Assembly (NCBI GenBank): GCA_003136575.1
Contig: PLEX01000030.1
Span: 2,071 to 66,070 of the forward strand
From: Bryobacterales bacterium
GTDB taxonomy: Bacteria > Acidobacteriota > Terriglobia > Bryobacterales > Bryobacteraceae
Length of the DNA stretch: 64,000 nt
Direction: 5' to 3'
Numbering within the stretch: the first letter of the stretch is position 1; the number at the start of each line of letters is the position of its first letter. The position numbers and the translations under genes are program-made. The notes under the pieces are model-generated. The model made no database searches and was not told where the DNA came from. It saw only the letters and a list, made by a program, of their open reading frames with translations. Of this stretch, positions 14,364-27,974 are shown piece by piece.

Positions 14364-15371
14364 ATGGACCCGGATCTGGAACAACTCAAACAGCACCTGC
14401 CAATGCTGGAATATCTGCAGCGGCATAACTGGACCCCTCGCCGACGCAGTGCCCGGCAGGAGTTTGTGGGCTTGTGTCCCCTGCACGAGGAAGCACGCCC
14501 TTCCTTTTACGTCAACGCCTGTAAAAACTTGTTCTATTGCCACGGATGTGGGCACGGCGGCGATCTGATTCGGTTTGTGGAACTCTTCCTCCACGTTTCA
14601 TTCCGCCAGAGTGTTGCGCATCTGCAGCAGGAACTGGCATCGAGGGCCCGCTCCGCGGCTGCCGCTGAGTTGCTGGCGCAGACCGTCGCCTACTATCAGC
14701 TTCAACTTCATCGCACTTCGGAAGCGGTTCGATATCTGGAACATCGTGGCCTGCGGGATTCCGCCATCATCGAAGAACTCGGCATTGGCTACGCTCCCGG
14801 CGGGAGACTGCGGGGTCATCTCACCGCCCAGGGCTATCCGTTCGATCTGCTGCTCCATACTGGCCTGATTGACAACCAGGGTCGCGACGCTTTCTGCCGA
14901 CGTGTAATCTTCCCGTGCCGGCAGCATGGCCGGATCGTGAACCTCTACGGCCGCAGTATCGGAACGGCTTTTCCGCATCGTTTGCTGCCGCGATCTAAGG
15001 GCGGCCTCTTTGCCTGGGACTCCGTCAGCCAATGCTCTACAGTAATTCTGGTCGAAGGACTGTTCGACTTGGCCGTGCTCTGGCAGTCCGGCTTCCGCAA
15101 CACCACATCCGCACTGGGCACCCATCTTACTCCCGCTCAACTCGATCAGCTCTGCGACCGGCCTGGTCGCCTGATCTACATCGTCTTCGATCAGGATGAA
15201 AACCAGGCAGGCCAGCAGGCTTCTCAGCACCTCAGGCTTCGTCTGGAACGCGCCGGCGGGACCGCCCTCATCGTCCGGTTACCGGCTGGACATGATCCTA
15301 ACAGCTATTTCGTCTCCGGAGCCACCGCTAACGACTTCGCCGCTCGCCTCGAAGGAGCACAACCGTTGTGA
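14364..15371 (+). CDS. DnaG-like primase, CHC2 zinc finger plus TOPRIM domain
   Basis: A 335-residue protein with a CHC2 zinc finger at residues 38-62 (C38-PL-H41 and C59-HG-C62), a helical middle part ('VRYLEHRGLRDSAIIEELGI' is a DnaG-core signature) and a TOPRIM domain at about 225-300 with the catalytic Glu in 'TVILVEGLFDLAVLW' and the Asp pair in 'YIVFDQDENQAG'. All the metal-binding landmarks of an active primase are present, but the C-terminal helicase-binding domain of chromosomal DnaG is missing. It lies in an element with two recombinases and overlaps the first of them by 4 bases (GTGA). Priming replication of an excised circle or of a transposition intermediate is a reasonable inference. 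Confidence 0.85.
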   Translation: MDPDLEQLKQHLPMLEYLQRHNWTPRRRSARQEFVGLCPLHEEARPSFYVNACKNLFYCHGCGHGGDLIRFVELFLHVSFRQSVAHLQQELASRARSAAAAELLAQTVAYYQLQLHRTSEAVRYLEHRGLRDSAIIEELGIGYAPGGRLRGHLTAQGYPFDLLLHTGLIDNQGRDAFCRRVIFPCRQHGRIVNLYGRSIGTAFPHRLLPRSKGGLFAWDSVSQCSTVILVEGLFDLAVLWQSGFRNTTSALGTHLTPAQLDQLCDRPGRLIYIVFDQDENQAGQQASQHLRLRLERAGGTALIVRLPAGHDPNSYFVSGATANDFAARLEGAQPL

Positions 15372-16393
15372 AACTCTACGTGGTTTATAGATCTCTCGTT
15401 CCCGCCAGCGCTTCGCCTTATCGTTTGCTCGATGAGCGCGAAGAGATCGCCTGGGCAAACTCGTTCCTCGATGCCCAGCGCATTCGCCAGCTGTCTGTGC
15501 GTTCGCTACGCGCTTACGCCTACGATCTGCTGCACTTTGCCCGCTGGTGGTCACAACATCCGGCGAAGCCTCTGTCCGAGCTCACTGAATCCACGCTGCT
15601 CGATTATGTTCGCTATCAACTCGACCAGCAACCGAAGCCCACGCCCCAGACCGTAAATCACCGCCTGGTCGTCCTGCATTGCTTGTATCGATTCCACCTG
15701 GGCACAGAGATTCCCGCCGGCCAGTCCCACTTCCAGCGCACTTATACGAAGCGATCCCCGCTCGGTTACGGCCGGCCACGTCGCGCCATAGCGCTGGGGT
15801 TGCGCTTGAAGCAACCCCGGCGAATTATTGTGCCGCTCTCCGCCCAACAAGTCGCCACGTTCTGGCACAGCTTTCATTCGTTTCGCGATCTCGCTCTGGT
15901 GGGTCTGATGTTGCTGGATGGCTTGCGTTCCGGTGAAGCCCTCTCTCTCCAGATGGAAGATCTTCAACTCGCTGATGCGCAGATTCGAGTTATCGGCAAA
16001 GGGAATAAACCGCGTGTGCTGCCTCTGCCCCATGAAGTCATTGATGTCCTGCAAAGCTATCTGCGGCTGGAAAGGCCTTTAACCAACTCGCCTTCGCTGT
16101 TCGTCTGTTTGAAAGGCCGGCGACGCGGACACTCGATGACCCCGGCCGGACTTCGCTCGCTTTTCCGAAGCCATCGTATGCGCTGCCAGGTCCCCCAAGC
16201 CAATCCACATCGTCTTCGGCACACCTTTGGAGCGGATATGGTGCGCGCCGGCATTTCGTTGCCCGCCCTGCAGCATCTCATGGGTCATTCGCAAATCCAC
16301 ACCACGATGCTGTATGTCCTGCTGGCGCCACAGGATGTTTGGCGCGAATACGCTCGTGCTATCGAGAAGCGGGCGCACCCGGAGCTTTTGTAG
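15368..16393 (+). CDS. Tyrosine recombinase A of the transposon
   Basis: A 341-residue XerC/D-type recombinase starting at GTG 15368, overlapping the primase stop. An N-terminal SAM-like DNA-binding domain spans about residues 25-125 ('SVRSLRAYAYDLLHFARWWS'). The catalytic domain has Arg187 in 'DGLRSGEALSLQ', the second box 'NPHRLRHTFGADMVR', the His of 'LMGHSQIHTTMLY' and the nucleophile Tyr316. All catalytic residues appear intact. It precedes a second, different recombinase by 6 bases. Two consecutive tyrosine recombinases recall TnpA/TnpB of Tn554-type elements, but those lack a primase. It should cut at the inverted repeats. Confidence 0.9.
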   Translation: MKLYVVYRSLVPASASPYRLLDEREEIAWANSFLDAQRIRQLSVRSLRAYAYDLLHFARWWSQHPAKPLSELTESTLLDYVRYQLDQQPKPTPQTVNHRLVVLHCLYRFHLGTEIPAGQSHFQRTYTKRSPLGYGRPRRAIALGLRLKQPRRIIVPLSAQQVATFWHSFHSFRDLALVGLMLLDGLRSGEALSLQMEDLQLADAQIRVIGKGNKPRVLPLPHEVIDVLQSYLRLERPLTNSPSLFVCLKGRRRGHSMTPAGLRSLFRSHRMRCQVPQANPHRLRHTFGADMVRAGISLPALQHLMGHSQIHTTMLYVLLAPQDVWREYARAIEKRAHPELL

Positions 16394-16399
16394 GTCTAT

Positions 16400-17533
16400 A
16401 TGAAACGGATAACACCGAGCCTTGATCAGATCTTTGCAACGCACCTCAATACTCTCGCCCTGACTCTGCGCCCCAACAGCATGACTGACTATCGCTGCGT
16501 CGTTGGCCGCTTCCTCTCCTGGCTCCACGCTGATTTCCCCCAGGTATGCCGGCTCTCTCTGCTTCGCCGCGATCCGCATCTGCTTGCCTGGTTCCGCCAC
16601 CTCTGCGAACGAGAACCGCCTTTGTCCAACCAAACCCGCCGCTGCTATCTTCTCTGTCTTCGCCGTGTGTTCGACGATCTGGCCGCCAACGGCAACGCCA
16701 TCGCGCCAGACCTCATCCGCCGCGAGGACTTTCCTCCCGCGCCGCGGTATCTGCCACGACCGCTTTCTCTCCAGGACGATCAACTGCTCCAGCAGGAACT
16801 GCAACGCGCAGACGACTGGACTGCCAACGCGTTGCTGCTCGTTCGTGGTACAGGTCTCCGCATTCGCGAATGCATCGATCTGCCTTTGGATTGCCTTCGC
16901 CAGTTAGGCAGTGAGGCGTGGGCTCTCCATGTCCCCATCGGCAAACTGCACAACGAACGCCTGGTTCCCGTCGATGCTGACGCTCGACGCGCCATATCCC
17001 GTCTTCTGGAACTACGTGCTCTGGCTTCGCCCGCACAACTGGCAAGATCCGATGGCTTCTTACTGCCACGTCTCGGTCGCTGTCAACCCTTGTATCACCG
17101 GCTTCGGAAAGACCTCGCGGCGGCCGGCAATCGAGCGGCCTGCTCCTGTGCGATAACGCCACACAGCTTGAGGCACAGCTATGCCTCCGAGATGATCCGC
17201 CTCGGGGTCAGCCTTCCGGCTCTCATGCAACTGCTCGGGCACAAAGACATCCGCATGACCCTGCGCTACGTGCAGGTTACTCAACACGACTTACAACGTG
17301 AATTCCACGCGGCCCGATTGAATGCGCCTCAATCGCATCGCCTTTCTATACCCTCCGTTTCCAACTGCTCTGCTACCGCCGATCTTCCAGGGGTCCGCCA
17401 AGCCATCGCTGCCGCTCGCCACCTGCTGGAGATGTACCGACGTCAGCTTGCCGACTCAAGAGTCCAGCGCACGATTCAGCGCCTCGACAAGCGATTGCTC
17501 GCTGTCGCGTCGCAACTGGATCAATTGAAATAG
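16400..17533 (+). CDS. Tyrosine recombinase B of the transposon
   Basis: A 377-residue recombinase with its own SAM-like domain ('LRPNSMTDYRCVVGRFLSWL') and catalytic domain: Arg154 in 'RGTGLRIRECIDLPL', 'TPHSLRHSYASEMIR', 'LLGHKDIRMTLRY' with nucleophile Tyr290. A C-terminal extension of about 85 residues ends in a predicted helical or coiled segment ('ARHLLEMYRRQLADSRVQRT') absent from recombinase A. The stop at 17531-17533 is 17 bases from the right inverted repeat. The difference in C-termini suggests that A and B have separate roles, for instance one per strand exchange or one acting as accessory factor, as with paired recombinases of other transposons. Confidence 0.9.
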   Translation: MKRITPSLDQIFATHLNTLALTLRPNSMTDYRCVVGRFLSWLHADFPQVCRLSLLRRDPHLLAWFRHLCEREPPLSNQTRRCYLLCLRRVFDDLAANGNAIAPDLIRREDFPPAPRYLPRPLSLQDDQLLQQELQRADDWTANALLLVRGTGLRIRECIDLPLDCLRQLGSEAWALHVPIGKLHNERLVPVDADARRAISRLLELRALASPAQLARSDGFLLPRLGRCQPLYHRLRKDLAAAGNRAACSCAITPHSLRHSYASEMIRLGVSLPALMQLLGHKDIRMTLRYVQVTQHDLQREFHAARLNAPQSHRLSIPSVSNCSATADLPGVRQAIAAARHLLEMYRRQLADSRVQRTIQRLDKRLLAVASQLDQLK

Positions 17534-17550
17534 CCGAAGAATGAGGAAAA

Positions 17551-17563
17551 ATTGGCCGGTCAA
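17551..17563 (-). repeat. Right 13-bp terminal inverted repeat
   Basis: ATTGGCCGGTCAA on the plus strand, exact inverse of 13595-13607 and directly followed by the second GTGGCAG. Confidence 0.9.
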
Positions 17564-17570
17564 GTGGCAG
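17564..17570 (+). repeat. 7-bp direct repeat flanking the element, right copy
   Basis: GTGGCAG, identical to 13588-13594. The preceding base differs between the two copies, so the repeat is exactly 7 bp on that side. Confidence 0.9.
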
Positions 17571-17912
17571 TTTCCGCACTCGCTTGCAATCGCGTGGATT
17601 TACCGCGACGATTATGCGCGGGCTGGCATACGGATGTTGCCGGTTATAGAGCCCGATGGGAAATCTACCACCCGGCACATCGTCGCGTTTGCGTCCACGT
17701 TGATTCCGGTCAGCCTCATTCCCGTCTTGCTGGGGATGACCGGACAAATCTATCTTGTCGGTGCCTTGGTTCTCGGTGGATGCTTCCTTTATTGCGGGAT
17801 TCGTGTCGCGATGGAACGAACAAACACTCGGGCACGACAGGTTCTCCTCGCGTCGGTAGTGTATCTCCCGCTGATTATGGGGCTGCTCGTCATCGACCGG
17901 AGAAGTTTTTGA
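17564..17912 (+). pseudogene. ctaB: Haem O synthase, 3' part, displaced by the transposon
   Basis: After the element the sequence resumes the haem O synthase frame: 'WQFPHSLAIAWIYRDDYARA' and 'GIRMLPVIEPDGKSTTRHIV', the second Asp-rich prenyltransferase region, followed by the last three transmembrane helices and a TGA at 17910-17912 ('LLVIDRRSF'). No start codon belongs to this piece; an ATG at 17541 is inside the transposon and gives a spurious frame. Together with 13041-13594 it forms one complete ctaB gene of about 300 codons. The cell would need another haem O synthase or an oxidase independent of haem O/A. Confidence 0.9.
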
Positions 17913-18612
17913 ATTTGCGGGATTGCCGCGAAGTTATTCTGCCAAACGTCACCGGCTTCATTTTCCCGCATCCGTTCTTTGCAGCCGGATTAAGGGCGGT
18001 GCTGGCATTCCGAGCCGTTCGTGCCATCTTCGCCAGATATCCTGGGTAGACAGTCCGGCGGGACCCTCGGGGGTGCCATCGTGGGTTTTCAGCGGCCTTG
18101 TGCGTGTCCTTTGGGCAAATCACGGATCTTCGCGTTGGCCTCGAGCGCTGCCTCGGCGATTGCGAGCGGGTCGAGTTGGCTGTAACTGCTTCCGTCCTTC
18201 GCCGTCCCTGTTGCGAATGGTCGGTGAGGACGCCTTTTCGAATCGCACGTCGAACTCTCAGCCTACGGCGACGGCGGTGATCAGCATAAATAAGACTGAG
18301 GGGTCGAAACCGATCCTCAACAAGAACGCTATGTTCTTTGTCGTCACTCGAAAGCCATTTTGGGAAGACGACTGTAAATTGGAAACAAGGAACATTGCGT
18401 TTCCCTGCACCTCGTTCTGGCGATTGAGAATACCGCGTTTTCACTCTGTGCTCTCTTCACGACGCAAACGGAGCACAAATGGAGCACAGATTTCCTCACC
18501 ATAGCAGCGGGTTAGCGCGGCGTTCGAGAATTTGCGTACAATTGCAGGATGGACGTCACGTTCGCATCGTAGATTTGCATGTCGTTGCCTCAGTATCGAC
18601 CTTTTCAATATA
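17913..18612. other. Non-coding stretch with a gene relic and tandem motif
   Basis: No intact gene is visible over these 700 bases. The minus strand keeps short coding-like tracts: one ending at 18089 ('DPLAIAEAALEANAKIRDLP' then 'KGHAQGR') and a second ending at 17958 that resembles the partner protein at 19308-19640. Near the right end, at 18469-18490, two 11-bp units CGGAGCACAAA and TGGAGCACAGA follow each other. Such decay beside an insertion suggests repeated accessory-DNA turnover. Confidence 0.5.
17958..18079 (-). pseudogene. Relic of a toxin-partner-like gene
   Basis: The minus strand reads 'TPEGPAGLSTQDIWRRWHER' and continues 'LGMPAPPLIRLQRTDAGK' before TGA at 17958-17960. This matches the C-terminal part of the 110-residue protein at 19308-19640 ('APAGVFTEDVWRRWHERYGI'). 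The 5' half is missing or out of frame, so it is a decayed second copy of that family. It is on the opposite strand to the intact copy. Confidence 0.5.
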
Positions 18613-19311
18613 ATGTCCCCGACCTTCGAGCCCCGCCTGGATGTGCTGCCACAGCCCCAACGGCGATTATGGCTGGAACTCGATGCTGTCCCGTCGGATT
18701 TTGTGCTCTATGGTGGCACCGGGCTGGCGCTTCATCTGGGCCACCGGGTCTCCGAGGATTTTGATTTCTTTTCGTCGTCTGGTTTTGAACCGAGCCGGCT
18801 GAGGGCGAGCCTACCCTTTTTTCGCGAGCTCGATCCAGCTAATCCCGACGCCTGGGTGCAATACAAGCGCGACAACCTGGAAGCCTTCGTAGATCGCGCC
18901 GGTTTGGTCAAAGTGTCATTTTTCGGCCGACTCGATTCGCTACAACGAGTTCAGGATCCTAAGCGAGCGGTGGGATCGCGCGTGCGCGTGGCGTCACTGG
19001 TCGATCTGGCTGGCATGAAGATGCGGGTGATTCAGGTCAGGGGAAGCTGGAAGGACTACGCGGACATTCACGCTCTGGCGGCGCATGGGATCGACCTGCC
19101 GACTGCGCTTGCAGCAGCCAATGCGATCGACAAGCGGTTCGATCCAGCTATCAGCATTCGGGCGTTGCAGTATTATGGTGATGGAACGCTGGATCGGGTC
19201 CCAATAGCCATGCAGCGGGATCTGACCGGATGGGCGAGAGTCGTTGATTTGGGCAAGCTGCCCACGCTTCATTCGCGGCGGGGACTGAGCCCGGAAGGGT
19301 TGGAACGATGA
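18613..19311 (+). CDS. AbiEii/AbiGii-like nucleotidyltransferase toxin family protein
   Basis: A 232-residue protein from ATG 18613 (MSPTFEPRLDVLPQPQRRLW). The nucleotidyltransferase signature is clear: 'FVLYGGTGLALHLGHRVSED' followed by 'FDFFSS', i.e. GGT at residues 34-36 and the metal-binding Asp/Glu cluster E48-D49 and D51. 'VSFFGRLDSLQRV' and 'VASLVDLAGMKMRVIQVRGS' complete the fold. Members of this family are toxins of type IV toxin-antitoxin pairs or phage-defence systems and transfer nucleotides to tRNA or other targets. It overlaps the next gene by 4 bases. The downstream partner is unlike the usual AbiEi antitoxin, which precedes the toxin. Confidence 0.75.
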   Translation: MSPTFEPRLDVLPQPQRRLWLELDAVPSDFVLYGGTGLALHLGHRVSEDFDFFSSSGFEPSRLRASLPFFRELDPANPDAWVQYKRDNLEAFVDRAGLVKVSFFGRLDSLQRVQDPKRAVGSRVRVASLVDLAGMKMRVIQVRGSWKDYADIHALAAHGIDLPTALAAANAIDKRFDPAISIRALQYYGDGTLDRVPIAMQRDLTGWARVVDLGKLPTLHSRRGLSPEGLER

Positions 19312-19640
19312 ACCTGACAATTCCCTATCCCGCAGAGCTTGTGCGAGTGGCGCGGAAGGTGGTTTGGTACGACAAGCCTGAACAAACGCTGGCCGATCTC
19401 AACACTTTTCTGGCGCACCTTATGGTTTACGGCGCCGCCGCTGATGTGGCCGTAGTCGAGCGGTATGTTCCGGCCGAGGAATTCCGAAGGGCTATTGAGA
19501 ATGCCCCCGCCGGGGTATTTACGGAGGACGTTTGGCGGAGATGGCACGAACGTTACGGAATACCCGTGCGAGCCTTGCCGCGGCGCCAGTTTCCCGATGG
19601 TTCGTTTGGTCCGGAGCCGGGAAACTTTTCAGGCCGTTAG
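19308..19640 (+). CDS. Small partner of the AbiEii-like protein
   Basis: A 110-residue protein of unknown function (MNLTIPYPAELVRVARKVVW), translationally coupled to the nucleotidyltransferase by an ATGA overlap. It is helical, with 'LADLNTFLAHLMVYGAAADV' and a distinctive 'FTEDVWRRWHERYGIP' near residues 72-87, and a Pro/Gly-rich tail. No DNA-binding motif stands out. Because the gene is coupled to a toxin-like enzyme, an antitoxin or specificity role is likely. A decayed relative is present at 17958-18079. The family is not known to me by name. Confidence 0.6.
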   Translation: MNLTIPYPAELVRVARKVVWYDKPEQTLADLNTFLAHLMVYGAAADVAVVERYVPAEEFRRAIENAPAGVFTEDVWRRWHERYGIPVRALPRRQFPDGSFGPEPGNFSGR

Positions 19641-19773
19641 GCACGATGTTTGGCGAAACAGGCCTCGTCGGCCGTCAGACTGGAAGTGATTTCATGCGCT
19701 CCCTCAGACTTACGAATTCACCCCTGCGTAGCCCGCTTGGCGGCATTATCCAAAAACTGGAACGCGGGGTTCA

Positions 19774-20881
19774 TCAAGCGGCCCGGTCATAATAATTGAG
19801 CATTCCTCCGAGGCGGCTGCGGCATCGAATCGGTCCCGCGTGATCAGCAGGACCGGGCGCGGGGAAAACGAGTACATTACCGATGCCCTGATGGTTTCGC
19901 TCGTTATCATAATGCGCCATAAATTCGCGAATGGCGATTCGCAAAGCGTCCTCTCCGAACAGAATCATGCGCTCCAGGCAGCACTCCTTAATGGTGCGTA
20001 CGAAAATGGTGCGTACGAATCGAATGGTGCGTACGAATCGCTCGGCGTAGCTGTTCAGGTTCGGCGACCGGGGTGGTAGTTTTACAGACTCCGTACCGGT
20101 CTCGGGGAGCATTGACAGAAACTCCGCCGAATAACGGATCCCGGTCATTAATCAGATACCTTTTGCCCTTAAGTAACCCATCATCGGCGTCGGTCAGATT
20201 GCGCGCAATCTGGCTCATCCACAAACCGTTTGCAGCAGCCGAGATGCCAGCGATCTGCACGCGACGCGTGGACAGTTCGATGCAGAACAGAACCATGAAG
20301 CGGCGGAGTCCCTGGCGGGTCCAGACCTCCACCGTGAAGAAATCCGCCGCCACGATCTGCTCCCAGTGCTGAACGAGAAACTCTTTCCATGTCGTTTTCC
20401 GAATTCGTTCCGGTGCGGGTTCGATGGCGTTGCGTTTCAGGATGTTGGCAATCGTGCCGTGGGCCAGTTCATGGCCGAGATTCGACAGCGCTCCCTGGAT
20501 TCGCACATAACCCCAGCTACGGTTCTCACTCGCCAAACGGACGACCAGTTCTTCGATCTCCTTCCCGGTCGCCGGTCGCCCGGGGCTGCGTCGCGCGCTA
20601 CCGTCATATTTATTCGCGATCAGTTTCCGGTGCCAGCCGAGCAAGGTCTGTGGCGTTACGATGGTTGCCATTTCCGCCAGCATCTTTCTTCCGAGCAGCC
20701 GGGCTTTGACCGCCAGACTGCGGCGCTGGTCGTCGTTGAACCGAAGGCGTCGTCCGCCCAACTGAGCACGAAGGACTCGGTTTTCTTCCCGCAGATACTC
20801 GATCGCATGTTGTTGCTGCTGATTCATCCAGCCGGCGACCGCGAAGAGAAGAAAGCGGAACGGATCTAATGTTTTTGGCAT
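19774..20881 (-). pseudogene. Integrase-core transposase, frameshifted
   Basis: The first part (20881 down to about 20130) encodes an N-terminal helix-turn-helix region ('[20 protein letters not shown]') and an rve-type integrase core ('[20 protein letters not shown]' carries the first catalytic Asp, '[10 protein letters not shown]' the second). At about 20130 a 2-bp loss moves the frame; the other frame resumes '[20 protein letters not shown]' then '[16 protein letters not shown]' with the terminal Glu and 'YDNERNHQGIGN'. Within that motif the block FVRTI is repeated in-frame (see 19990-20040). The gene resembles single-ORF transposases common in Acidobacteriota and Planctomycetota. I found no convincing terminal inverted repeats. 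Confidence 0.85.
19990..20040. repeat. Short tandem repeat inside the dead transposase
   Basis: Three in-frame units begin AATGGTGCGTACGAA: one of 15 bases (19990-20004) and two of 18 bases (20005-20022 and 20023-20040, extended by TCG). On the minus strand they encode FVRTI three times in the place where related transposases have it once, close to the catalytic Glu. Confidence 0.85.
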
Positions 20882-21323: not shown

Positions 21324-21956
21324 CTATTTTTCTTCGGTAAAGGGTTGAGGCGGAGGCTGTGAACTCCGCGAATATCCATGAATCGCCGAACGCTTGCCGC
21401 CCAGACGGTGCGCCTCGTCGCTCATCGGGTGAACGCCGCTCGAATCGATCCATCGATTGTAAAAATTGAACAGCGCGCAGACGGTCAGCGCGTAGTAGAT
21501 TGCCTCGTCGGTAAAGCCCGCGCCGTGCAGTAATGAAATATCCGCCGGCCCGATGCTGACCGAATCCCCGTTTACTTTCCGGACAAAGCGAAACAGCACC
21601 TTCTCCTGTGCGGACAGGCCGGAAGTCTCAACATCGTTGATGACGCCTTCGACCAGTTCCCGACTCTTCAACAGTTCCGCCGCGACCGCGGCGTGCGATT
21701 TCAGTCAAAACGGGCAGTGATTGAGGGCCGAAGTGTACGCCGCGATTAACTCGCGAATGCCGGGCGAAAGCGGAGCCTCCTCCCGCATGATTTCCTGCGT
21801 GAAACGCTCCAGGTGCACCGTCGCTTTGGTCCTAAAGGCGAACATATGGAGGATCTGCGGGTATTCCGAGCCCATACCCTTCATCATCTGAATCGCTTTG
21901 GTGTAGTTATCGTCGCCTTCGTGCTTTTCTACATCTGAAAGGAACATGGGATCCAT
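21324..21956 (-). CDS. AhpD-like (carboxymuconolactone decarboxylase fold) selenoprotein with in-frame UGA
   Basis: Read with TGA 21707-21705 as selenocysteine, this is one 210-residue gene from ATG 21956. Residues 72-88 give 'AYTSALNHCPF-U-LKSH', i.e. C81-P-F-U84-x3-H88, which exactly matches the CxxCxxxH redox motif of AhpD/peroxidase-related proteins with Sec in place of the second Cys. The frame continues without a break ('AAVAAELLKSRELVEGVIND' and 'KVNGDSVSIGPADISLLHGA') with the family's usual length. A hairpin sits 11 bases after the UGA (21678-21693). It would act as a thiol or selenol peroxidase-type reductase. It follows the other selenoprotein gene by 55 bases and is the last of the selD-selC series. 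Confidence 0.88.
21678..21693 (-). promoter_or_regulatory. Bacterial SECIS hairpin of the AhpD-like gene
   Basis: On the minus strand the mRNA reads CGCCGC-GGTC-GCGGCG, a perfect 6-bp stem with a GGUC loop, starting 11 bases after the UGA. Position and a loop with GGU match the E. coli fdhF SECIS, whose loop is AGGUCU. Confidence 0.75.
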
Positions 21957-22011: not shown

Positions 22012-23271
22012 TCAACGTTTGAAGATGCCGGTATCGGGATGGTAGTTTCGCCAGTCGAACCAGTAATCCTTTACGGCCGATACGGGCGTCAGGCACCGTC
22101 CCGACGATTTACCGCTCACCGCGCACCCGTCAAAGTTCCATTCGCTCGCGGTTTTCGTGTCGAGGAACAGTGGCACCTTCGCGTCAGCCACGGCGACAGG
22201 GTTGGGTCCCTGTCCGGGATCCGGCTTTCTGTAGAACTCCGAGACCGTCTCGCCATCATCCAGCCTCGTGCGGAATGCCCGGATTGATCTTCGATCCGGA
22301 CCGGTCACGATCAGCAGCGGTTCGCCACCCAGCCGGTCTTCGATCAATGTGGCATCCAGTATGCGGCTCACGCTGTATGCGCGACTTTCGCCGGCAAGCT
22401 GAATTCCCAGTACGAGGTCCCGCGACTTCAGGGGCGTGTTCGGAAAATCGAGTACCGTTCTCGCCTTGGCCATGTGTTCTTCCCAATCCTTAGTTTCGTA
22501 GTCGGGGACGAACCCCGGCACCGGCAACAGGACACTGCCGCCGGGCTCCAGTTTGCGCCACAGGTCGAACGTGAGTTCATCACTGTATACGAGCGTGAGT
22601 TGGGAGCCGGCAAGAGGTCCGGACACGGCCTTACCGCTGATTTGCTGCCAAAACGTCCCAGTCTGGTCGTCCCGCATCAGAAAGTTCTGATTGTTGATAC
22701 CAGCCAGGTGAAAGGTCAGTATCAGGCCGTTGGCCTTCCGGTTCCACACCAGACCGGTGTGGCAGAGCGTTCAATAAGTAGCGGCGATCGGCTCGCCGCC
22801 CAGGGTATCGTTCACGATGTGATGGTAGGCCATCTCGCGGATCGGATAGGCTCGCCGCGCGCCGTTTACCTTGACGGCGATCACCATGTCGTCGAGATCG
22901 ACCTTGACTTTGTCGGCGACTGCGAACTGAGGCGAGTCGATCGGATGAAACATCAGTTCGTAAACATCGATTCGCGCCAGAAACGCGCCGCCGATGGCCA
23001 ACAACGAGAACAGAACGGCAGTGAAGCGGGGCAACTTCCTGCTGAAGGTGGCCCAAACGAACCACGCGAGCGCAATTCCGAGCACCGCGCATACAATGGA
23101 AACGGCCGGCCCGAATCGCGCAACCAGCAATGCCAAGGCCAGTTCCCGCGGCCCTTGCGAACGGAACGGCCGGATGACATACAGCGGGAATGCGAAGCAA
23201 GCCAGCGAGGCGATTGCCAACCCGAGGGAAAGCAGGAGCGAAACAGCCCGGCGACGCAAGACGTTTGTCAT
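22012..23271 (-). CDS. DUF3179 membrane protein, predicted selenoprotein (UxxC)
   Basis: The gene starts at ATG 23271 (MTNVLRRRAVSLLLSLGLAI), chosen over an upstream ATG because it begins the hydrophobic region. Three or so membrane helices occupy residues 10-100; the DUF3179 domain follows. In-frame TGA 22773-22771 is residue 167: 'HIVNDTLGGEPIAATY-U-TLCHTGLVWNR', with the frame open for another 252 codons to 22012. Typical DUF3179 proteins have 'TYCPLC' here, so Sec replaces the first Cys of a CxxC pair (U167-T-L-C170). A 7-bp stem with a GGTCT loop begins 8 bases after the UGA. It is preceded by tRNA-Sec and selD on the same strand. The function of DUF3179 is unknown; a redox or metal role of the pair is inferred. 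Confidence 0.88.
22744..22762 (-). promoter_or_regulatory. Bacterial SECIS hairpin of the DUF3179 gene
   Basis: CCACACC-GGTCT-GGTGTGG, a perfect 7-bp stem with the loop GGUCU, which includes the G and U bases that SelB contacts in the E. coli fdhF SECIS. It starts 8 bases after the UGA. Confidence 0.85.
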
Positions 23272-23370: not shown

Positions 23371-23465
23371 TGGCGGAAGTGCATGTGAGTCGAACACACC
23401 GTCGCCTCGAAGAAACGACCACCGGTTTTGAAGACCGGGAGGATCACCGGATCCTATGCACTTCC
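23371..23465 (-). tRNA. selC: tRNA-Sec (anticodon UCA)
   Basis: Minus strand, 95 bases including an encoded CCA. The long acceptor stem GGAAGTGCA pairs with TGCACTTCC, the D arm has a 6-bp stem with a 4-base loop (AGGATC-CGGT-GATCCT), the anticodon stem-loop reads CCGGT-CTTCAAA-ACCGG with anticodon TCA, a long variable arm GTCG...CGAC follows and the T arm is TGTG-TTCGACT-CACA. These are the hallmarks of bacterial selenocysteine tRNA. It lies between selD and the DUF3179 gene. Confidence 0.95.
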
Positions 23466-23493: not shown

Positions 23494-24564
23494 CTAACAA
23501 AGCTGAATGCAGCCTTTCCCCGCCAGCGCTCTATCGCGATCGAGTACTCTGCCAATAGTCCACGCTCCGCATCCCTGAGCCGTCAATGCGTCGGCGAGAG
23601 CTTCCGCTCTTTCAGGACCGATCGCGATCAGCAGGCCGCCCGAGGTCTGCGGGTCAAACAATAAAGTCTTCCTTTCAGCGGAAACGTGGCAGTTCGGCGC
23701 CTCATATACAACGCACTCCGCGAACTCGCGGTTGGCAATCAGTCCGCCGGGAATCGCCCCGAGGCGGACAGCTTCCAGCGCGCCATCCAGAAGGGGCACA
23801 TGTTCTGTCTCGATTTCGAGGACCACGGCGCTGCCAAGGGCCATTTCCCGCCCATGTCCCATCAGACCGAAGCCGGTAACGTCGGTCATGGCGTGCACTT
23901 CGAACCGGCCCTTTGCCAGGACTTCGGCTGCTTTCGCATTCGACGTGGTCATGGAGCGGACAGCCCCGTCCACCCAGACCTCACTCGCCTTGCCCTGCTT
24001 CAGCGCGGTTGTGATCACGCCGGTGCCGATCGCTTTCGTCAGCAGCAGAATGTCTCCGGGCTTCGCGCCCGTGTTGGTGTAAACTCGTGCCGGATCGATG
24101 AGACCCGTGACCGAATAGCCAAACTTGATTTCCGCGTCCTTGACGCTATGCCCGCCGATTACGGAGCAACCGGCCTCGCGCATGACGGACAATCCACCCG
24201 CCATGATCTGACCGAGCGTTTCGAGGTCGCCGTGCTCGGGGTAGCAGACCAGCGCCAGGCTGGTTACGGGCCGGCCGCCCATAGCGTACACGTCACTCAG
24301 CGCGTTTGTCGCCGCAATCCGGCCATAGGTGAACGGATCGTCCACCATGGGCGTGAAAAAATCCACGGTTTGGACAAGGGCGAGGTTCTCGCCGATCCTG
24401 TAAACGCCCGCGTCGTCAGACGTGTCGAATCCCACTAACACCTTGGGATCGGACTGCCGCGGCAGTCTGGACAGAACCTGCTGCAAAGAGCCCGGCGGCA
24501 ACTTGCTTGCGCACCCGCCCGCTTTTACCTGCTGAGTCAGCCGAACCCGATCTTTGGTTTCCAT
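23494..24564 (-). CDS. selD: Selenide, water dikinase (selenophosphate synthetase)
   Basis: A 356-residue enzyme making selenophosphate from selenide and ATP, the selenium donor for SelA. Start chosen at ATG 24564 (METKDRVRLTQQVKAGGCAS), which puts the catalytic Cys at residue 18, the equivalent of E. coli Cys17. The next motif Cys is Ser20 and the essential Lys follows at 21. Further motifs are 'LVGFDTSDDAGVYRIGENLA', 'TVDFFTPMVDDPFTYGRIAA' and 'NALSDVYAMGGRP'. This is a Cys-type SelD with no UGA in the active site. It is divergent from selA (63 bases between starts) and 28 bases upstream of tRNA-Sec. Confidence 0.95.
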   Translation of the reverse strand: METKDRVRLTQQVKAGGCASKLPPGSLQQVLSRLPRQSDPKVLVGFDTSDDAGVYRIGENLALVQTVDFFTPMVDDPFTYGRIAATNALSDVYAMGGRPVTSLALVCYPEHGDLETLGQIMAGGLSVMREAGCSVIGGHSVKDAEIKFGYSVTGLIDPARVYTNTGAKPGDILLLTKAIGTGVITTALKQGKASEVWVDGAVRSMTTSNAKAAEVLAKGRFEVHAMTDVTGFGLMGHGREMALGSAVVLEIETEHVPLLDGALEAVRLGAIPGGLIANREFAECVVYEAPNCHVSAERKTLLFDPQTSGGLLIAIGPERAEALADALTAQGCGAWTIGRVLDRDRALAGKGCIQLC

Positions 24565-24627
24565 GCAAAAATAAGATGGTCGCACAAAGCCGATACCCGC
24601 GACACCGACACGCACGATCCCATCACG

Positions 24628-26061
24628 ATGGCCGACGACAACCTCCATGCCCTGTATCGCGAACTGCCGTCCGTCGATCAGTTACTCGGCTCGCTGCCCG
24701 CCGGTCTGCCAGCGACTGATGCGGCCCACGCCAATGCGACCTTTGCCGCGCGCTACGTGCTCGATAAATTGCGCCTTGAGATTGCGGCGGGTCAACACGA
24801 CGCCGATAGCCTGGCGCGGGCAACCGGAAAACTGGGCGAAACTCTGGCTGCGGCAATCCCGGACTTTTCCCGCTATTCGCTCCGCCCCGTTGTCAACGCG
24901 ACCGGTGTTATTCTGCACACGAATCTGGGGCGCGCACCTCTGAGCCGACGCGCTCTGGACCACATACTCGAAACCGCAGGCGGCTACTGTAATCTCGAAT
25001 TCGATCTCGGCACCGGTAAACGGAGCCGACGCGAACAGATCGCCGAAGAGCGTTTCCTCATGGTGGTGGCTCGGCAAACAAAGATCCCGTTCCGGGTTCT
25101 CAGAGACACCTATGGGCTTTCTGTGGCGAACAACTGCGCCGGAGCGATGTTCCTGGTGCTGAATGCGCTTGCCGCAGGCGGAGAAGTCCTTGTCTCACGA
25201 GGTGAACTGATCGAAATCGGCGGCGGCTTCCGGATCCCGGAGATTCTGGAGCGCGCCGGCGCGGTACTGCGCGAGGTGGGCTCTACGAACAAGACGCGCC
25301 CCGAAGACTACGAGAACGCCGTCACGGATCGGACCAGGCTGATCCTGCGCGTCCATCGATCCAACTTTCGCATCAGCGGGTTTACCGCGCGTCCGGATCT
25401 TGCGCAGTTGGTTCTACTCGGCAGAAGACGCAACCTGCCGGTGGTGGAAGATCAGGGTACGGGAGCGCTTGCTCCTCTGGCTTCGTATGGCGTCAGCGGG
25501 GAACCAACCTTTTTCGACAGCGTGGCGGCGGGTGTCGACGTCATCACCGCCAGCGGAGATAAACTACTCGGCGGACCACAGGCCGGATTGGTATTCGGAC
25601 GCCGCGACCTGATGAAGCAGATCGGCGGCAGTCCTCTGGCCCGGGCATTCCGCGTCGACAAATTGACGTATGCCGGACTGGAGGGTACGCTAGCGGACTA
25701 TGCCGCGGGGACCGAAGCCGCCATCCCCGCGATCAGCATGCTGAGCCTGCGGCCCGAAGCCATTTTGCGCCGCGCCGAGGCCCTTGCCGCGACCATCAAC
25801 AGGGTCGACTTTAAGGTGTCGATACGTCCCGGGTACAGCGTTGTTGGCGGCGGGACGTCACCGGGCACTAGGCTGCCGACACATCTCGTCAGGCTCGCAC
25901 ACCGCACGCAGACGGCCGCAACTCTGCTGACGGCCCTGCGGGAATCGTCTCCCGCGGTAATCGCACGTATCGCGAAGGATCGCGTACTGCTGGATCTGCG
26001 CACGGTGGCTCCAGAGCACGATTCCGTCGTCGCCCGTATTCTCAACACAATCGCCGCATGA
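24628..26061 (+). CDS. selA: L-seryl-tRNA(Sec) selenium transferase
   Basis: A 477-residue PLP enzyme converting Ser-tRNA(Sec) to Sec-tRNA(Sec) with selenophosphate. The N-terminal tRNA-binding domain (residues 1-70) begins 'LYRELPSVDQLLGSLPAGLP'; the core has 'RPVVNATGVILHTNLGRAPL', 'SVANNCAGAMFLVLNALAAG' and the PLP lysine K312 in 'ITASGDKLLGGPQAGLVFGR'. The length is normal for bacterial SelA (about 460-470). Its stop overlaps selB (ATGA), so the two are coupled, and it is divergent from selD. All expected landmarks are present. Confidence 0.96.
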   Translation: MADDNLHALYRELPSVDQLLGSLPAGLPATDAAHANATFAARYVLDKLRLEIAAGQHDADSLARATGKLGETLAAAIPDFSRYSLRPVVNATGVILHTNLGRAPLSRRALDHILETAGGYCNLEFDLGTGKRSRREQIAEERFLMVVARQTKIPFRVLRDTYGLSVANNCAGAMFLVLNALAAGGEVLVSRGELIEIGGGFRIPEILERAGAVLREVGSTNKTRPEDYENAVTDRTRLILRVHRSNFRISGFTARPDLAQLVLLGRRRNLPVVEDQGTGALAPLASYGVSGEPTFFDSVAAGVDVITASGDKLLGGPQAGLVFGRRDLMKQIGGSPLARAFRVDKLTYAGLEGTLADYAAGTEAAIPAISMLSLRPEAILRRAEALAATINRVDFKVSIRPGYSVVGGGTSPGTRLPTHLVRLAHRTQTAATLLTALRESSPAVIARIAKDRVLLDLRTVAPEHDSVVARILNTIAA

Positions 26062-27974
26062 GACCGATCGTCATCGGAACGGCTGGGCACATCGATCACG
26101 GGAAAACAGCCCTTGTGAAAGCGATCACCGGCATCGATCCCAGCCGTCTGCGCGAAGAAAAGACCCGCGGTATCACGATTGACCTCGGCTTTGCGCATCG
26201 TATCGTTGCCGCGCGAGACGGCGCTTCTTTGCAGCTTAGCTTCGTCGATGTTCCAGGCCACAGCGCGTTTATTCGCAACATGCTGGCTGGTGTGGGCGGT
26301 ATCGATATCGTATTGCTTGTGATTTCCGCCGAAGAGGGCGTGAAGCCGCAAACCCGGGAACATCTTGCAATTTGCAGCCTGCTTGGGATACGCAGGGGAA
26401 TTGCGGTTTTGTCGAAAGCCGATGCCGTTTCGTCCGAGAGGCTGGCAGTGGTGCGCGAAGAGGTCAGGGTTTTTCTTAAGGGATCCTTTCTCGAGGGTGG
26501 CCTGGAGAGTGGACCCGACTGGCCGCTGCCAACGAGCGCGCAAACCGGTGACGGCCTTGGCGAACTCGCCGAGCGTCTTACCGCCCTTGCGGGCCAGATC
26601 GATTCCCGCGACGGCGCCGGTCTGGTTCGCCTCCCCATCGATCGGAGTTTCAGCATGCGCGGCTTTGGCACCGTTGTGACCGGCACTCTGATGGCAGGCA
26701 CTATTGAAGTGGATCAAAAACTGCGGCTCGAACCCGGAGGCCGGGACACTCGAATCAGGAGCATCCAGGTGCATGGACAGAGCTGCGATCGCGCTCCGGC
26801 GGGCTCCCGAGTGGCGTTGAATCTGGCTGGCATCGATCACTCTTCCGTCGTGCGGGGCGACACGATTGTTGCGGCGGAAACGCTCGCCGCAGTGGATGAG
26901 ATCGACGCGGAAGTCACGTTGCTGCCGGATGCCGCGCCGCTTAAACATGGCTCGCGCGTTACGTTTCACGCGTATACTTCGGACAGCCCCGCGGCTATCC
27001 TGCTCTATAGCCAATCGAGAATGGAACCCGGCTCCATGGCGCTGGCCCGTCTGAAACTGGGGCGGCCCGTTGTCCTCGTGCCCGGCGACCGCTTTATCTT
27101 ACGGCTGCCATCGCCGTCGGAAACCATCGCGGGTGGTACGGTGCTGGATGCTGCTCCTCTGCCGAAACAATCCAGACTGGAAGCGCGGCGTTGGCTTGCG
27201 TCTTTGCGAGATGCAGGCGAAAGCGCGGAGAGACGGTTGCTTTGTCGCGTGACGCGAAGACAAATGGCAGGTCTCGATCTCGCTACCGCAGTCCGTGAGA
27301 TGGGAATGACACCGGCGAGAATTCGCGAAATCTCCGGGCGCTGCGTCGTTGCAGGGAAGTTAGGTGAATCCGGCAGGGCGCATTTTTTCGAACGGGAACT
27401 CTATGAGATGGCGTTGAGGCGGATCGAGACCGAAGTTACGCGATATCACGTCAGTTCACCGGAACAGGCCGGGATCAAACGAGCGGACCTGCAGGCCCGA
27501 ACCAGTCTGCCTTCCGCGTTGTTCAACTTCGCCGTGGATGAGCTGACAACAGGGAAAGTTATCGGGGTTGGCGGAGATACGATTTCAAGGTACGGATTCG
27601 CTGCGAGGTTGATCGCGGGCGATCCGGCCAACCTGGACGCGCTGGCGAGGATATACGCAAAGGCGGGGCTGGAAACTCCCGCTCTGCGCGACGTAGTTGC
27701 CGAGTTGCGACTTGCAGAACGCGAAGTACAACGGCTCCTGGTGGTTCTGGTGAAAGAAAGCGTTCTGGTGAAGATCGGGAACGACGCTTATGTGCACCGG
27801 GACAGGCTGGCTGAGCTGCGGCGGACGCTGGCAGGCATGCGCGGGAAGTCGATGGATGTTCCCCACTTCAAGCAAATTACCGGCCTGTCGCGGAAGCACG
27901 CGATCCCCTGGCTTGAATTTCTGGACCGGGAGAGAATTACGCGCAGAGTTGGCGATGCGCGGCTGGTGCTGTAA
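26058..27974 (+). CDS. selB: Selenocysteine-specific elongation factor SelB
   Basis: A 638-residue GTPase that carries Sec-tRNA to the ribosome at UGA codons next to a SECIS. The G motifs are intact: 'GTAGHIDHGKTALVKAITGI', 'EEKTRGITIDLGFAHR', 'DVPGHSAFIRNMLAGV' and 'LSKADAV'. Beta-barrel domains II-III follow ('IDRSFSMRGFGTVVTGTLMA'). The C-terminal winged-helix array (from about residue 430) binds the SECIS; it includes 'RDVVAELRLAEREVQRLLVV' and 'SMDVPHFKQITGLSRKHAIP'. Coupled to selA. The SECIS hairpins at 21678 and 22744 are its expected ligands. Confidence 0.96.
   Translation: MRPIVIGTAGHIDHGKTALVKAITGIDPSRLREEKTRGITIDLGFAHRIVAARDGASLQLSFVDVPGHSAFIRNMLAGVGGIDIVLLVISAEEGVKPQTREHLAICSLLGIRRGIAVLSKADAVSSERLAVVREEVRVFLKGSFLEGGLESGPDWPLPTSAQTGDGLGELAERLTALAGQIDSRDGAGLVRLPIDRSFSMRGFGTVVTGTLMAGTIEVDQKLRLEPGGRDTRIRSIQVHGQSCDRAPAGSRVALNLAGIDHSSVVRGDTIVAAETLAAVDEIDAEVTLLPDAAPLKHGSRVTFHAYTSDSPAAILLYSQSRMEPGSMALARLKLGRPVVLVPGDRFILRLPSPSETIAGGTVLDAAPLPKQSRLEARRWLASLRDAGESAERRLLCRVTRRQMAGLDLATAVREMGMTPARIREISGRCVVAGKLGESGRAHFFERELYEMALRRIETEVTRYHVSSPEQAGIKRADLQARTSLPSALFNFAVDELTTGKVIGVGGDTISRYGFAARLIAGDPANLDALARIYAKAGLETPALRDVVAELRLAEREVQRLLVVLVKESVLVKIGNDAYVHRDRLAELRRTLAGMRGKSMDVPHFKQITGLSRKHAIPWLEFLDRERITRRVGDARLVL

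Follow-up and report, generated by a model that had tools for sequence, protein, structure and literature searches.

Comparative sequence analysis indicates that a DUF3179 (PF11376) gene from a Bryobacterales bacterium is almost certainly a bacterial selenoprotein gene, in which an in-frame UGA takes the place of a cysteine conserved among its relatives. The gene lies on the reverse strand at 22012..23271 of the window, by which we mean the whole stretch of 64,000 nucleotides analysed here, and would encode 419 residues with selenocysteine (Sec) at position 167, from an ATG start to a TGA stop. An initial annotation of this DNA had read it as a DUF3179 selenoprotein with a UxxC motif and a GGUCU SECIS element, and this core reading is upheld by the recurrence of the TGA, by a hairpin that appears to be under selection, and by selenocysteine machinery in the locus and in relatives. 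SelB and tRNA-Sec would insert selenocysteine at UGA codon 167, guided by a SECIS hairpin with a GGUCU loop inside the gene. We consider it highly probable that the selenoprotein reading holds together with a two-repeat Rieske-like architecture of the protein, the exact reaction being left out of this judgement.

A recurrent in-frame TGA beside the sel locus

Family membership of the read-through protein follows from its match to PF11376 (E 9.9e-64, residues 111-414), which scores 216 bits against a Pfam gathering cut-off of 27 and agrees with the initial assignment; NCBIfam and PDB sequence searches with the protein returned nothing useful. The internal TGA (22771..22773, reverse strand) would supply U167 of the motif U167-T-L-C170-H171 and falls, as first described, at the first cysteine of a CxxC motif, in a column that holds only cysteine or TGA in the loci read. 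The frame is open for 166 codons 5′ and 252 codons 3′ of this TGA, ending at the terminal TGA stop (22014-22012).

A search for TGA at the same place in relatives had been proposed as a check, and the codon proved recurrent: over 140 loci, in which at least 13 genomes occur twice, the column holds TGA in 100, TGC in 33, TGT in 7 and no other codon, which places an in-frame UGA at a column homologous to cysteine. One TGC row (L019), from another DUF3179 subfamily with the motif CTLCGT, carries an internal TAA elsewhere in its frame. Sequencing error in a single strain, also raised at the outset, is not the explanation, since, of the 80 top-ranked named loci out of 109 confirmed in one genome scan, 78 have TGA at the column. 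The named relatives are Acidobacteriota, many of them Bryobacterales; the protein is conserved on both sides of the TGA, and the frame is open on both sides in the relatives' loci. DUF3179 was found in 34 of 61 close genomes, with 39 matches in all, of which 16 contain a single internal TGA. The wider sample of 396 genomes of the phylum yielded DUF3179 in 133 and a listed one-TGA match in at least 46, with 20 of these 46 confirmed as TGA on the Sec column.

These observations bear on a reading in which the TGA is an ordinary stop, whether in a pseudogene, through sequencing error, or between two genes with re-initiation at GTG 22749. A mechanical ORF of 245 aa does begin at that GTG, and errors are possible in metagenome assemblies, but the recurrence of TGA in all but two of the 80 top-ranked named loci, within frames open on either side, the conservation of both flanks of the protein, the conserved hairpin described below and the adjoining Sec genes all speak against termination. 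Given the comparative data, an ordinary stop appears very unlikely, its probability lying barely above nil, and we retain the selenoprotein reading. Gene-calling programs that treat every TGA as a stop will break up or shorten genes of this kind.

The genome to which the window belongs has selA, selB, selD and tRNA-Sec, all adjoining the DUF3179 gene and all inside 6.7 kb with it. The tRNA-Sec gene (selC, 23371..23465) and then selD (selenide water dikinase, Cys form by eye; 23494..24648) lie directly upstream on the same reverse strand, and selA (24628..26061) and selB (26058..27974) run the opposite way on the forward strand. In another acidobacterium (L125, 14-3583), selD, selA and a two-piece SelB match likewise adjoin the DUF3179 gene. 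Beside the sel cluster of the window, at 14364-20881, we noted by eye a primase-like ORF, two tyrosine-recombinase-like ORFs and an IS3-like transposase; the cluster may be mobile.

Hairpin constraint and the link with selenocysteine machinery

The hairpin in the window (22744..22762, reverse strand) is as the initial annotation described it: a perfect 7-bp stem CCACACC/GGTGTGG (arms 22762-22756 and 22750-22744) around the loop GGTCT (22755-22751), starting 8 bases after the TGA. The distance from UGA to loop is 15 nt with a 5-nt loop, or 16 nt if a closing G-U pair and a GUC loop are counted; the published bSECIS model, in the part accessible to us, places this distance at 16-37 nt in most elements. 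The same part of the model describes a loop of 3-9 nt with G in the first two places, a stem of 4-16 bp and a minimum free energy (MFE) of -7.5 or lower, and the window hairpin lies within these ranges for loop, stem and MFE (GGUCU, 7 bp, -14.9 kcal/mol over 42 nt). Synonymous recodings of the same peptide yield at least 7 Watson-Crick pairs with a G-headed loop in 1321 of 20000 cases and fold at least as well in 99 of 2000, and equally good folding is reached by 19 of 200 dinucleotide-shuffled sequences (z -1.34). Taken alone, then, the window hairpin is within chance and is insufficient by itself for a Sec reading.

Conservation across relatives is another matter. Over codons 168-175 of 77 TGA genes the mean synonymous entropy is 0.34 bits, vs 1.31 for 82 other conserved columns; none of 100000 random draws was as low as 0.34 bits, and the loop codon is GGT in all 77 genes. 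This codon usage indicates that the hairpin is conserved far beyond chance and is under selection. Two synonymous changes convert the loop-closing pair from C-G to G-C in L103, L119 and L137, and also in L109, which was dropped from the 77-gene codon count. At codon 166 (Tyr), which immediately precedes the UGA, 75 of the 77 genes use TAT, which suggests that the constraint reaches upstream of the UGA too.

Stems of at least 5 pairs occur in 97 of 100 TGA genes vs 5 of 39 Cys genes, a Cys set that includes distant subfamilies. The TGA genes with shorter stems are L050 and L060 (3 pairs) and L139 (4 pairs), and when G-U pairs are allowed some Cys genes have long stems as well (L020, 8 pairs). 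In deeper subfamilies a similar position is occupied by other stems, for example CTGGCAT-CGTGT-ATGCCAG in L043, L049 and L057. In two loci, L100 and L125, the same GGTCT lies further downstream and is enclosed by another stem, possibly a natural shift of the SECIS element.

Genomes with the TGA form also tend to encode the machinery for reading it. All 16 TGA-bearing genomes among the 61 relatives, the window's own included, have selB (whole or in pieces) and/or tRNA-Sec. SelB scored over the cut-off in 41 of the 46 listed TGA genomes of the phylum sample; of the remaining five, four score 68-76 bits for tRNA-Sec and one has a SelB piece at a contig edge. Over all 396 genomes TGA and SelB are associated (with and without SelB, 41/5 vs 213/137; p 1e-4). 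Inside the genomes that have DUF3179 the link is not significant (p 0.23), SelB being present in 69 of the 87 without a listed TGA, because several DUF3179 subfamilies are simply Cys.

One family of genomes (f8, apparently Acidobacteriaceae) offers a closer view. It comprises 13 sampled genomes with a DUF3179 match, from which 11 orthologues were read, G270 (SelB present) and G412 (weak match) being left out. The orthologues from SelB-less genomes are TGC in 10 of 10 cases, and the one from SelB-bearing G144 is TGA; the ten SelB-less genomes have no strong tRNA-Sec, the best scoring 51 bits (G190). On a tree of 157 rows, 5 Sec/Cys changes are needed and 4 are forced, and the ten f8 Cys forms group with those of G007 and G032 in a single Cys clade. 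An independent-pairs test of Sec against Sec machinery found 3 pairs, too few to decide. Among genomes with Cys forms, G007 is without selB and tRNA-Sec, G016 has both, and G032 has both together with one Cys copy and one TGA copy.

Predicted Rieske-like repeats and a candidate active site

In an AlphaFold model of the whole protein (mean pLDDT 95.9), three long N-terminal helices (residues 2-32, 41-75 and 79-98 in the secondary structure of the model; 22975..23271) are followed by two beta domains, all on the reverse strand. The first repeat (residues 122-262; 22486..22908) alone carries H150, U167 and C170. The second (residues 283-415; 22027..22425) is homologous to it (hhalign probability 99.8, E 1.6e-28, in a single comparison), lacks the Sec/His/Cys site and contains C383 and C393. 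Other members begin, by eye, with signal-peptide-like or lipoprotein-like sequences, and the accessible part of PMC9230427 gives the localisation of a DUF3179 protein as cytoplasmic membrane; on these two grounds we infer an extracytoplasmic domain. The modelled N-terminal helical part, which is hydrophobic, is probably a membrane anchor.

Structure searches point to the same fold for both repeats. Modelled by itself (pLDDT 94.3), the first repeat reached a best Z of 9.7 over 98 residues at 3.4 Å among the matches listed, and the 50 of 50 listed matches, which include ferredoxins, oxygenases, bc-type Rieske proteins and NirD-type subunits, are ones that we take, partly by title, to be Rieske-fold proteins. 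When the whole model was searched, the top rows matched the N-terminal helices, and Rieske chains were hit by both repeats with Z values of 6 to 7.8, which fall inside the noise band quoted for the tool. Foldseek with the first-repeat model gave a top match of probability 1.00 and E 0.06, and neither the whole nor the domain models produced an E below 0.001. No thioredoxin-like fold appears among the listed structure matches of whole and domain models.

The Rieske ligand motif CxH...CxxH occurs in 0 of the 94 members designated A1 and is absent from the window protein. Against 33 Rieske sequences, hhalign gave probabilities of 0.4 for the first repeat and 13 for the second. A Pfam scan of the 94 members found DUF3179 in all 94 and weak matches in few members for the other families listed; the 25 listed, out of 82, include none of Rieske type. 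We therefore speak of a Rieske-like fold and not of a Rieske protein, since the ligand motif is missing and the profiles do not join the families. The models make it probable that each repeat adopts a Rieske-like beta fold without the [2Fe-2S] ligand motif. DUF3179 might instead have a fold of its own, bearing a CxxC thiol site, that matches only through a common small beta arrangement, as could be argued from the Foldseek E values, from the whole-model Z of at most 7.8 for the beta part with helices in the top rows, and from the weak hhalign scores; the domain-model Z of up to 9.7 with Rieske-fold proteins in 50 of 50 listed rows, and the agreement of both repeats in the whole model, count against this, and we regard it as unlikely. 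Replacement of the Rieske CxxH loop by U167xxC170 was considered and dropped, as strand order and the hhalign register place the motif before the first cluster loop.

Within this Rieske-like setting, conservation singles out a small set of residues. H150, C/U167, G191, D201, W208 and G218 are invariant in the 94 A1 rows and Cys170 nearly so; a distant TGA member outside A1 (L159) has Asn near the His150 position. The second cysteine of the motif is kept in 102 of 110 TGA members, the other 8 having Ala (5), Val (1), Thr (1) or Asp (1). In the second repeat, C383 and C393 are found in 61 of 61 A1 members with TLCHTG or GLCHTG and in 1 of 33 others, possibly as a disulphide or resolving pair.

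Sec167 would be the redox centre, replacing exactly the cysteine conserved in every row read, in a selenol/thiol site assisted by His150. Such a site is favoured over a classical CxxC dithiol because the second cysteine is dispensable in some Sec forms and the histidine is kept in nearly all. On this proposal, to which we give about even weight, the domain would lie outside the cytoplasm, with Sec167, at a strand end just before the turn and near His150, as the redox or catalytic residue and Cys170 as its usual, not constant, partner. The chemistry would be selenol/thiol redox chemistry, as in a thiol oxidoreductase or a peroxidase, and the AhpD-like selenoprotein described below may serve as redox partner in some species.

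Its main rival is a metal site, in which Sec/Cys, His150 and perhaps Cys170 act as ligands. Sec is a metal ligand in formate dehydrogenases and in NiFeSe hydrogenases, metal clusters are common in Rieske folds, and the invariance of His150 and Cys/Sec167 in 94 of 94 A1 rows, with Cys170 nearly so, would suit ligands as well. Loss of Cys170 in the UxxA/V/T/D forms, and a strand register that appears to put the site outside the Rieske cluster loops, argue the other way, and metal binding strikes us as rather improbable. The motif also resembles a c-type haem site (CXXCH) with Sec for the first Cys: UxxCH is present in 98 of 110 TGA members, which would suit a cytochrome-like electron carrier, and an Idiomarina DUF3179 protein is tabled together with several cytochromes (PMC9230427, accessible part). 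Yet the histidine is found in only 16 of 49 Cys members, the second cysteine is absent from 8 of 110 TGA members, and the predicted Rieske-like fold places the motif at a strand turn, so that we give a haem site very little credence and keep the selenol/thiol site as the preferred reading.

An AhpD-like neighbour and comparison with known systems

Directly downstream of the DUF3179 gene is an AhpD-like gene of 210 residues (21324..21956, reverse strand; TIGR01926, over cut-off) with its own in-frame TGA (21705..21707), giving CPFU (C-P-F-U84, a CxxU motif). The hairpin 3′ of this UGA (CGCCGC-GGTC-GCGGCG, 21678..21693, reverse strand), with its loop 17 nt downstream, is within chance when taken alone (2892 of 20000 synonymous recodings). 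The gene is likely a second selenoprotein, of known family, in the same cluster.

A search of 160 loci located close AhpD homologues (48-66% identity) in the vicinity of the DUF3179 gene in the window and in L067 (the same genome as L015), L069, L075, L102 and L022. The homologue directly adjoins the DUF3179 gene on the same strand in the window, L075 and L022, lies about 0.3 kb off on that strand in L069, is tail to tail with it in L067, and is on the opposite strand about 3.4 kb off in L102. In all but L022 the AhpD gene has a TGA with the same kind of hairpin (with Ns nearby in L069) and the DUF3179 gene has a TGA too; in L022 both genes are Cys and the AhpD hairpin is gone. L070 has a more distant AhpD in TGA form. 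L130 combines a TGA DUF3179 gene with distant Cys AhpD-like genes, which counts against strict co-variation. Together, these arrangements suggest that the two proteins may share a redox job.

Clustering of neighbours at 80 loci (the best 80 of 109 confirmed) revealed no constant partner of DUF3179; the commonest neighbour family, pilus-like by eye, is upstream in 21 of the 80. In the stretches scanned with Rfam (20 of 30 loci; 12 of 80), the matches were tRNA-Sec and, near L064 and L065, two ordinary tRNAs, with no other RNA family found.

Drawing these lines together, we tentatively propose, at somewhat less than even confidence, a new redox-enzyme architecture: a tandem Rieske-fold protein without [2Fe-2S], whose selenol/thiol site (Sec/Cys167, nearly invariant His150 and usually Cys170) would occupy a different turn of the first repeat on the outward side of the membrane, and which in some Acidobacteriota would form a two-selenoprotein relay with the AhpD-like selenoprotein encoded nearby. 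A widespread family without a function thereby gains a predicted fold, a candidate partner and a candidate active-site residue that is firm because Sec replaces exactly the conserved cysteine. The accessible part of a 2006 survey gave 3 selenoprotein families and 4 selenoproteins for the phylum (PMC1794560); the DUF3179 internal TGA alone occurs in at least 46 of the 396 phylum genomes sampled here.

Several known systems provide points of comparison. The neighbouring gene belongs with the AhpD-like selenoproteins (TIGR01926, CxxU), a family different from DUF3179 and a possible redox partner of it. Rieske ferredoxins and oxygenase domains (PF00355) resemble each DUF3179 repeat in predicted fold but carry CxH...CxxH where DUF3179 has Sec/Cys-x-x-Cys and His, and the profile match is not significant. 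The top structural matches of the first-repeat model are NirD-type nitrite reductase small subunits (3c0d, 4aiv, 2jo6), which we take to be Rieske folds without cluster ligands, so that a cluster-less Rieske fold has a precedent; we know of no Sec/CxxC site in them. The SECIS element of E. coli fdhF, whose apical loop is presumably GGUCU, shares that loop with the window hairpin and differs in its stem, the window loop lying 15 nt after the UGA.

The closest known counterpart is a DUF3179 selenoprotein family already in print. The initial annotation knew of no DUF3179 member among listed selenoprotein families, which is wrong: PF11376 is tabled as 'UxxC/T' in the accessible parts of two reviews, PMC9312934 and PMC13188914, the former crediting the entry to Zhang and Gladyshev (NAR 2007;35:4952). 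The suggestion of an unlisted family thus fails, and the gene is instead a new acidobacterial member; the string 'Acidobacteri' was not found in the main text of either paper. In the open-licence literature, as far as its text was accessible, we found no DUF3179 fold or function and no two-tandem-repeat Rieske-like architecture, and a search of that literature for a Rieske-like fold paired with a selenoprotein likewise found none. The window protein shares its Pfam family with the tabled entries and has Sec at the same motif position, as far as those tables can be compared; beyond the tabled UxxC/T, the present analysis adds UxxA, UxxV and UxxD forms, the GGUCU SECIS, and the reading of the protein as a tandem repeat of a Rieske-like fold.
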